A stretch of DNA of 64,000 nucleotides from Verrucomicrobiota bacterium (GTDB lineage: Bacteria; Verrucomicrobiota; Verrucomicrobiia; Opitutales; UBA953), in the NCBI GenBank assembly GCA_014193315.1, contig BJHS01000004.1, forward strand, positions 77,153 through 141,152, written 5' to 3'. The translations under genes were made by a program, and so were the position numbers. This document shows, piece after piece, positions 4,025-4,651 of the stretch (positions are counted from its first letter, which is position 1; every line of letters starts with the position of its first letter). The notes under the pieces are model-generated. The model made no database searches and had not been told where the DNA came from. It saw nothing but the letters and a program-made list of their open reading frames with translations.

Positions 4025-4109
4025 GGAGAGGTGGCAGAGTGGTCGATTGCACCTGACTTGAAATCAGGCGAGCCGCAAGGCTCCGAGGGTTCGAATCCCT
4101 CCCTCTCCG
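4025..4109 (+). tRNA. tRNA-Ser (UGA)
   Basis: The acceptor stem GGAGAGG (4025-4031) pairs with CCTCTCC (4102-4108), and the discriminator is G4109. The anticodon stem CCTGA/TCAGG carries the loop CTTGAAA, so the anticodon is TGA, which reads UCA and other UCN codons. A long variable arm and the T-loop TTCGAAT identify a class II serine tRNA. The 3' CCA is not encoded; the bases after the discriminator are CCC. The last 16 bases of the gene (4094-4109) are also the first part of the tandem repeat unit that follows. Confidence 0.95.
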
Positions 4110-4651
4110 CCCGAAGGGTGGGGAGGGAGGGATGAGAACCCTTGGGTTCGGCGAAGGCCGCTAGGCCGAGCAGGCAATGCCGTAGGCATTGGGCCGACAG
4201 GCCCGGAGCGCAGCGTAGTCAATCCCTCCCTCTCCGCCCGAAGGGTGGGGAGGGAGGGATGAGAACCCTTGGGTTCGGCGAAGGCCGCTAGGCCGAGCAG
4301 GCAATGCCGTAGGCATTGGGCCGACAGGCCCGGAGCGCAGCGTAGTCAATCCCTCCCTCTCCGCCCGAAGGGTGGGGAGGGAGGGATGAGAACCCTTGGG
4401 TTCGGCGAAGGCCGCTAGGCCGAGCAGGCAATGCCGTAGGCATTGGGCCGACAGGCCCGGAGCGCAGCGTAGTCAATCCCTCCCTCTCCGCCCGAAGGGT
4501 GGGGAGGGAGGGATGAGAACCCTTGGGTTCGGCGAAGGCCGCTAGGCCGAGCAGGCAATGCCGTAGGCATTGGGCCGACAGGCCCGGAGCGCAGCGTAGT
4601 CAATCCCTCCCTCTCCGCCCGAAGGGTGGGGAGGGAGGGATGAGAACCCTT
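4094..4651 (+). repeat. 127-bp tandem array anchored on the tRNA-Ser 3' end
   Basis: Four perfect 127-bp units start at 4094, 4221, 4348 and 4475. A fifth copy starting at 4602 stops matching after about 50 bp (near 4651). Every unit starts with the block AATCCCTCCCTCTCCG, which in copy 1 is the T-arm/acceptor end of tRNA-Ser. Each unit is rich in inverted repeats. A 14-bp stem (4095-4108 with 4120-4133, one mismatch) pairs the tRNA tail with its own trailer, and CAATGCC-GTA-GGCATTG (4175-4191) and AACCC-TT-GGGTT form further hairpins. A 62-codon antisense frame recurs, but it is a by-product of the repeat. No difference is visible among the full copies, implying recent amplification or homogenisation. 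Confidence 0.95.

Follow-up and report, generated by a model that had tools for sequence, protein, structure and literature searches.

The question of why a tRNA gene should be followed by several perfect copies of its own 3' end is raised by a locus of a Verrucomicrobiota genome, where a tandem array extends from the end of a tRNA-Ser(UGA) gene inside the window (that is, the whole stretch of 64,000 nucleotides that was analysed). The reading favoured here, held with a confidence somewhat better than even, is that the array consists of four RtT-type elements, kin in kind to the repeats of the Escherichia coli tyrT/tyrV locus, which would be transcribed with the tRNA, cut at the tails, and multiplied by tandem duplication.

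The array and its host tRNA gene

The host gene, tRNA-Ser(UGA), lies on the forward strand, as do all the features described below, and is placed at 4024-4112 by ARAGORN and at 4025-4109 by Rfam RF00005. Tandem Repeats Finder delimits the array at 4094-4651, with a period of 127, 4.4 copies, 100% matches, and no indels, and its start falls inside the tRNA gene, so that the first 16 bases of the unit reach base 4109 and the repeated part of the tRNA corresponds to the 3' strand of the T-stem and the acceptor stem. Specifically, in the register of the original prediction, unit 1 (4094-4220) is made of the tRNA tail, the trailer arm, and a 77-bp stretch, and the identical units 2 (4221-4347), 3 (4348-4474), and 4 (4475-4601) were recovered both by Tandem Repeats Finder and by the repeat search, each full unit ending where a further copy of the tRNA 3' tail begins. 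A partial fifth unit of 50 bases (4602-4651; Tandem Repeats Finder and sequence), consisting of the last tail copy and its arm, borders a T run. The original prediction had described a perfect 127-bp array on the tRNA 3' end, with units that begin with the last 16 bases of the tRNA, five tails in total, and four identical full copies; all of this is borne out, the five tails being that of the tRNA itself and the copies at 4221, 4348, 4475, and 4602. CCA is not encoded in this tRNA gene, which carries CCC at 4110-4112; the tRNA-Ser(UGA) of several congeners (L032-L039) likewise lacks an encoded CCA, many other relatives encode it, and the tail copies behind CCA-less tRNA-Ser(UGA) genes are also without CCA.

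In the window's own genome, a 44-contig draft (a circumstance that bears on the true copy number), a whole-genome search returned no second full unit and only fragments outside the array. For the 77-bp repeat-specific stretch these fragments measure 14-28 bases, on which ground a dispersed repeat in this genome was rejected; nine such fragment loci appear coding-like by eye, the stretch inspected at two of them (L011, L012) not being centred on the match. Chance or low complexity was rejected as well, given the 100% tandem identity and the fold compared with shuffles. Directly 3' of the array, the stretch 4655-4880 contains the inverted repeats CGGGTAGGG ... CCCTACCCG and AGGGTCAGGGGCAG ... 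CTGACCCTGACCCT, and, since pieces of it match 17 other places in the genome at E <= 0.001, it looks like a dispersed family of the REP or MITE type.

Likeness to RtT RNA

The Rfam model of RtT RNA (RF00391) matches the array at 4238-4366 and 4492-4620 (37.4 bits, E 1.5e-5, model positions 1-130 of 130), a likeness to the E. coli tyrT/RtT repeats that the original prediction missed. Since 37.4 bits lie below the Rfam cut-off of 45 bits, the unit is named RtT-type and is not filed as a formal member of RF00391. Matches to this model at E <= 0.01 are present in 16 of 57 genomes (own included), among which the congener G020 alone exceeds the cut-off with 51.9 bits, and E. coli is the only one of 14 control genomes to give such a match; moreover, eight of 16 loci of relatives hold one match each at E <= 0.1, with scores of 30.2-37.9 bits that are all under the cut-off.

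A covariance model, R1, was built from 33 of the 38 distinct elements of the genus and family, leaving out five with a divergent insert. In its functional register, which runs from the upstream arm to the tail copy, R1 delimits four elements in the window (window coordinates being contig coordinates less 77152): element 1 at 4122-4237, with 129.5 bits; element 2 at 4249-4364, to which the Rfam match 4238-4366 corresponds; element 3 at 4376-4491; and element 4 at 4503-4618, with the Rfam match 4492-4620. Applied to the tyrT/tyrV stretch of E. coli K-12, R1 ranks the four RtT copies at the top (45.4-49.3 bits, the next match scoring 8.8), and the Rfam model calls the same four copies with 133-137 bits; three of them form a 178-bp array of 3.1 copies. 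Thus, the RtT model and R1, which come from distant phyla, detect each other's elements. The resemblance extends to position, the units standing behind a tRNA gene, in tandem, and each closing with a tRNA tail, and to a secondary structure conserved through covariation. Sub-cut-off matches to Rfam sX4, microRNA, and plastid families fall on the tRNA or on the palindrome and gave no lead.

Knowledge of the E. coli tyrT repeats, which contain a protamine-like frame, dates back to about 1980. According to the portions of the literature covered, rtT RNA is released from the tyrT transcript and is possibly part of the stringent response, an observation credited to Bosl and Kersten 1991 (PMC2965389, PMC4986893); RtT RNAs have been seen on Northern blots in Actinobacillus (PMC4986893), and a 175-bp variable repeat is located at the rtT RNA of Salmonella (PMC2658671). 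No agreed function for the E. coli tyrT repeats was met in those portions.

Anatomy and folding of the element

The aligned elements share one order of parts: first an arm that is the complement of the tail, then GGGATGAGAACC and a short loop, next GGGTTCG and the insert with its small hairpins, and finally CAATCCC followed by the tail. As GGTTCGAATCCC is an ordinary T-arm and GGGATGAGAACC is its complement, except for GA facing GA, the element can be described as a T-arm and tail, split by an insert, plus a strand able to pair with them; the insert splits the element's T-loop between G and A. In element 1, sequence and folds place the anti-T-arm GGGATGAGAACC at 4129-4140, where it complements GGTTC / ATCCC of a tRNA T-arm with a GA/GA mismatch, and sequence and alignment place GGGTTCG, the 5' half of the T-arm, at 4144-4150, parted by the variable insert from the element's copy of the 3' half, AATCCC. 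The tail copy of element 1, which comprises the 3' strand of the T-stem and the acceptor stem, spans 4221-4239 when compared with positions 4094-4112 of the tRNA. A tandem GA motif is noted in the accessible parts of covariation work on RtT (PMC7657543, PMC8250186).

The fold of one 127-base unit in the original register beats all 200 shuffles (z = -5.65). In the functional register, a single element reaches -50.9 kcal/mol, a modest advantage over its shuffles (z -2.22, with 2 of 200 equally good), and of the consensus structure its lowest-energy fold recovers the closing helix and the first two hairpins alone. The arm is also predicted to pair backwards with the tRNA's own 3' half, through 25 bp interrupted by a GA/GA loop (-51.5 kcal/mol, z -7.25); the stretches of the backward and forward folds differ in length, so that the two energies (-51.5 vs -50.9 kcal/mol) are not decisive.

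Selection on structure

For the 33 elements, the proposed structure has 96.2% of its cells paired, a share that does not exceed 53.5% once the partner is slid. The paired share is 95.1% in 88 distinct elements, which come from 94 matches in 80 loci, and 19 of the 29 pairs of their alignment (A2) have changed on both sides. The cells changed on both sides number 217, against at most 37 after sliding and a shuffled mean of 66, the shuffle figures overstating significance because the alignment is fitted to the model's structure and its rows are related. The helices are drawn on this alignment and are partly unlike those of Rfam. The closing helix makes the case on its own, as its outer pairs switch among G-C, A-U, and U-A when the tail changes, and 69 of 85 tail copies are identical to the tail of the host tRNA. 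The arm follows the tail: at four positions beyond the constant part, 2.49 of 4 pairs form with the element's own tail (51 distinct pairs), whereas permutation to others' tails gives a mean of 2.07 and a maximum of 2.45 in 5000 draws, in a test that took 112 of 149 matches (37 lacking the required anchor) and leaves relatedness uncorrected. G.U cells exceed A.C cells (90 vs 28, one pair accounting for 37 of the 90 and a seemingly misaligned pair for 16 of the 28), which identifies the structured strand as the tRNA-sense strand. On these comparative grounds, the substitution patterns show that the closing helix and the inner hairpins are kept paired by selection, and that this selection acts on the strand of the tRNA.

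Distribution in the genus and the phylum

When the tRNA-Ser(UGA) with its trailer (197 bases) was compared with 141 genomes, 138 matched, mostly over the tRNA alone. The repeat itself is found with altered sequence in many congeners, behind tRNA-Ser(UGA), (CGA), (GGA), or (GCU). R1, with which the comparison against related genomes proposed in the original prediction was run, gives 110 matches in 47 of the 55 genomes of the genus, including all 22 genomes with completeness >= 90% and contamination <= 5%. Of these matches, 72 are preceded by a tRNA within 600 nt, 18 follow a T-loop and tail without a recognised tRNA (some of them cut by contig ends), three follow another unit's tail only, and five are at a contig end; the remaining 12 have no tRNA, tail, or contig end near and all score below 80 bits. 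The anchoring to tRNA genes, which the original prediction had staked on the unit not being scattered over many unrelated loci, therefore survives.

The 18 orphan-tail cases, including L091, L173, L180, L182, L183, L185, L187, L190, L191, and L197, several of which share upstream sequence, are possibly junctions of integrated elements at tRNA-Ser genes; a search by eye for an integrase among the ORFs around the orphan tails gave no lead. Sequence resembling the stretch 4655-4880 borders, again by eye, orphan tails in L080, L190, and L191. Moreover, a decayed, lower-scoring RtT-like element with no tRNA near recurs in seven genomes (L200, L204, L205, L207, L212, L215, and L218), where it stands at the end of what is apparently one and the same protein gene, reading THGFVMTFDTP and presumably Dabb-like, and looks like an old orphan.

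Across the phylum, R1 matches 23 of 288 genomes, counting G000 and one congener, and for G155 and G281, two of these 23, the match is false, being the tRNA gene itself. The survey yields 45 rows, of which six (G000, G041) were dropped as already in the genus list; the 39 further matches comprise 32 behind a tRNA, none behind an orphan T-loop and tail, one behind a unit tail only, one at a contig end, and five with none of these contexts, among which are the two false ones. The hosts other than tRNA-Ser are tRNA-Gln(UUG), tRNA-His(GUG), and a tRNA with a CAU anticodon. In another family of the same order, a tandem RtT-like element stands behind tRNA-Gln(CUG) (L106, genome G094), and the terminator-like hairpin of the trailer recurs in its second unit.

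Copy number and residence

Genomes listed with one contig also hold multiple copies: three at tRNA-His(GUG) in G393, two that are identical over 107 bases in G268, and two alike at 119 of 121 positions in G233. In E. coli, the tyrT unit is found in 4655 of 5426 complete genomes, at 1-9 places in each with a median of 2, places that are not necessarily all at tyrT. Together, the one-contig genomes and E. coli indicate that such arrays are real, which does not imply that the number here is exactly four. Arrays are not always uniform, as two different units adjoin in G032 and in G017. Spacers are, by eye, more alike within one locus than between species, as expected of local duplication and homogenisation, and the tandem expansion put forward in the original prediction is supported.

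The locus of the window differs among relatives, with the array in G000, a remnant in G051, and no element in G021. Between G051 and the window, the upstream flank is 96% identical over 1181 bases and downstream pieces are 87% and 81% identical; in G021, the upstream flank aligns, the product of the gene that follows the tRNA is 71% identical over 426 residues to that of 5306-8407, and the element is carried behind other tRNA-Ser genes. A tree of the core, from which arm and tail were removed (84 columns, 67 of 94 rows labelled by host, most forks unresolved), requires 11 host changes over the 67 labelled rows and four hosts, and, for every host taken separately, 498 or more of 500 shuffles require more changes; with the genome as label the number is 58, a figure given with no shuffled baseline. 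This tree leans towards cores that go mostly with the tRNA gene, with some host switches. The concerted change of arm and tail, together with the clustering of cores by host across species, suggests long residence rather than bursts of insertion. For this reason, the repeated insertion at an att site, one of the explanations offered in the original prediction, finds no support as it was worded, the unit also having no integrase; att scars as the whole story were rejected on account of the arm that follows the tail, the covariation, and the clustering of cores by host.

RtT-like elements beyond the phylum

The core motif (GGGATGAGAACC, 2-10 bases, and GGTTCG, with no tail included) was scanned in a collection of 84,980 species, in which some tens of chance matches to such a pattern are expected by a rough reckoning; the analysis covers 80 loci of at least 117 stretches. 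Among the matches listed (91 in 80 loci), 72 are preceded on the same strand by a tRNA gene no more than 900 nt away, and for 39 of them a tail copy with no more than one mismatch is present within 260 nt; random positions in the 80 listed loci fall within 900 nt behind a tRNA in 450 of 8000 cases. The first units, again among the matches listed, start within 80 nt of the tRNA in 53 of 62 cases, and the host tRNAs are those for Ser, Arg, Lys, Glu, Pro, Tyr, Gln, Gly, His, and Met. Of the 19 listed matches that are not linked to a tRNA, three follow tmRNA genes at 44-52 nt (L248, L292, L304), which indicates that the element goes with tRNA-like 3' ends and not with tRNA genes alone; five others of the listed 19 come close to the end of a locus, and L251 and L302, at least, are chance-like, inside coding sequence.

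Carriers among the matches listed include Paenibacillus, with four motif copies in one chromosome (L299), Sphingobacterium, Prevotellaceae, with a 77-bp unit (L294), Pantoea, Stenotrophomonas, Saccharibacteria, and others. The inserts of Paenibacillus and of one Clostridia bin (L238, L246, L250, L261, L282, L299) share GTCGGAG ... CGCAGTC whatever the host tRNA and, judged by their sequences, are a lineage-specific insert family. In a contig labelled as a Thermoplasmatales archaeon (L259), the motif stands 18 nt behind tRNA-Met and has a tail copy; either a genuine archaeal occurrence or a misbinned contig could account for it.

The Rfam RtT model recognises, among eight cross-phylum loci, that of Pantoea only and none of the other seven, and 24 R1 matches fall in 22 of 36 cross-phylum loci that had been picked by the motif; consequently, the cross-phylum elements are named RtT-like and common descent is not claimed for them. 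A broader reading, tentative and held at somewhat less than even confidence, is that RtT is one branch of bacteria-wide satellites at tRNA and tmRNA 3' ends that would act either as a switch of tRNA folding and maturation or as a tail-mimicking parasite, with arrays setting the dose; the common plan of these satellites would be a sequence that captures the T-arm and tail of the host, followed by an insert-split decoy T-arm closed by a copy of the host tail. In the parts of the open-licence literature covered, no description was found of RtT outside gammaproteobacteria or of the split-T-arm design.

Transcription and proposed mechanism

A scan of 3850-4900 for sigma-70 promoter and terminator consensus sequences called none, the T run at the end of the array included. 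The presence of a terminator between the tRNA and the first unit was assessed with a simple script written for this work: none was found in 60 of 60 loci of the genus, a terminator-like hairpin was found in 5 of 25 loci of the phylum sample, and in the cross-phylum set such a hairpin separates tRNA and motif in 40 of 62 first units, compared with 262 of 1600 in the control. As nothing terminator-like was found between the tRNA and the units, the array would be transcribed from the tRNA promoter, and in this window the element is probably transcribed together with the tRNA. The cross-phylum hairpins indicate that joint transcription is not a general rule, and the notion that RtT is always co-read with the tRNA was rejected on their account, despite the clean result in the genus; for the phyla with a terminator before the element, a different role, conceivably one of the DNA itself, is to be considered. 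For the genus, the suggestion of an RNA function in the original prediction gains support from the structure selected on the tRNA strand and from the lack of a terminator before the first unit.

The following course of events is proposed for the window. Transcription from the tRNA promoter would run on through the array, and the nucleases that mature tRNA 3' ends could cut at every tail, setting free the tRNA and as many as four RtT-like RNAs, in the way described for E. coli. The arm of the first unit might have two alternative partners, the 3' half of the tRNA itself and the tail copy that follows, and by competing for the arm the tail copy may hold it off the tRNA. The copies would have grown in number by tandem duplication, through slippage or unequal recombination, and would stay alike by homogenisation.

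Alternative explanations

The degrees of confidence given to the alternatives are not mutually exclusive. One of them, rather unlikely, regards the unit as a very small piece of selfish DNA that lodges at tRNA 3' ends by mimicry of T-arm and tail, restores the 3' end, and is moved by enzymes encoded elsewhere, so that arrays represent repeated landings. The match of tail copies with the host tRNA (69 of 85 identical) is in keeping with this, as are the diversity of hosts, both within one phylum (Ser, Gln, His, and CAU tRNAs) and elsewhere (Arg, Lys, Glu, Pro, Tyr, Gly, and tmRNA among the matches listed), the varying presence at a single locus with both flanks matching (array in G000, remnant in G051, none in G021), and the terminator-like hairpin that precedes the element in many phyla and makes it DNA-like there. 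However, plain copying of a target site does not explain why arm and tail change together, the cores of different species group by host tRNA (11 changes for 67 labels, with counts for single hosts below nearly all shuffles; the genome label needs 58, with no shuffled baseline), the G.U excess marks the transcribed strand, and the ORF lists tie no recombinase or transposase to the elements. Still less credible, and indeed very improbable, is a neutral by-product, in which replication slippage copied the trailer hairpin of the tRNA and left repeats that have no function: covariation speaks strongly against it, with both-side changes in all six helices and few breaks, and so do the matches in 22 of 22 good-quality genomes of the genus (>= 90% complete, <= 5% contaminated) and the core motif behind tRNA genes across phyla, even if the copies are identical here, copy number varies widely in E. 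coli, trailing copies are often truncated or decayed, and 12 of the 110 genus matches have neither tRNA nor tail.

An assembly artefact, which would concern the copy number only, the cell having fewer units than the draft, is quite improbable: four perfectly identical copies in a 44-contig draft invite the suspicion, and the contigs of several relatives end at or near the point of the array, but arrays occur in one-contig genomes (three copies in G393, two each in G268 and G233) and in E. coli, and the non-identical neighbouring units of G032 and G017 could not be invented by an assembler. The explanation with the least to commend it, raised in the original prediction by analogy with 3'ETS-leuZ of E. 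coli, is that the processed trailer would serve as a sponge for small RNAs, since the conserved feature is pairing within the element and, to our knowledge, 3'ETS-type trailers need no tail copy. An array would nonetheless yield several copies of a sponge per transcript, and in Actinobacillus the stability of RtT RNAs suffices for their detection on Northern blots, according to the accessible part of that report (PMC4986893).

Comparison with known systems

The array is an RtT-type variant outside E. coli and possibly a lead to a bacteria-wide class. The recurrence of this design in a phylum remote from E. coli, with tails that match the host and with strong covariation, and of its core motif behind tRNA genes in many other phyla, opens the old question of the E. 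coli tyrT repeats to testing by comparison, in which the anti-T-arm, the split T-arm, and the tail copy are constant, and the insert, the host tRNA, the number, and the position of a terminator before or after are free. Two practical warnings follow from these loci, namely that draft contigs tend to end at such arrays and that a tail copy behind a tRNA gene is not necessarily the scar of an integrated element.

Trailers of the 3'ETS-leuZ type are single, are not known to have a tail copy, and base-pair with small RNAs; the units of the window resemble them in that they would lie in the tRNA primary transcript past the mature 3' end. Integrative elements with att sites at tRNA 3' ends also leave a tail copy that repeats the tRNA 3' end. 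Unlike them, the window unit has an arm complementary to the tail, its copied part starts at AATCCC with the 5' half of the T-loop not directly before it, and it has no integrase gene: among the ORFs of 80 aa or more, the only one extending into the array (3794-4135) is a frame that runs through the tRNA, so that the 127-bp unit encodes no recombinase. The BIME/REP sequences of enterobacteria are, like the window units, short and palindromic, and they are scattered repeats not known to be tied to tRNA tails. The window element does not belong with them, its own genome having the array only and only 12 of the 110 genus matches standing without tRNA, tail, or contig end. In the part of the source covered, some rtT-like elements are reported within BIMEs (PMC2965389).

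Closer comparisons are offered by the RtT family itself. The sRNAs Arrc20 and Arrc21 of Actinobacillus pleuropneumoniae (Pasteurellaceae) belong to the RtT Rfam family, are located beside tRNA genes, and were detected as RNA (PMC4986893). Unlike the window, their neighbours are Asn and Lys tRNA genes, upstream of which they are described, and tandem arrays are not described in the part of that paper covered (PMC4986893), whereas the window has an array of four units. The RtT/rttR repeats of E. coli tyrT-tyrV (RF00391) differ from the window in their host, which is Tyr and not Ser, in the length of the unit (178 vs 127 bp), and in the inner hairpins, and the window, where the tail has no encoded CCA, scores under the Rfam cut-off. 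In both, the units stand in tandem directly behind a tRNA, each closing in a copy of the tRNA 3' tail, and each is composed of GGATGAGAA and then GGTTCG, small hairpins, and AATCC with the tail.
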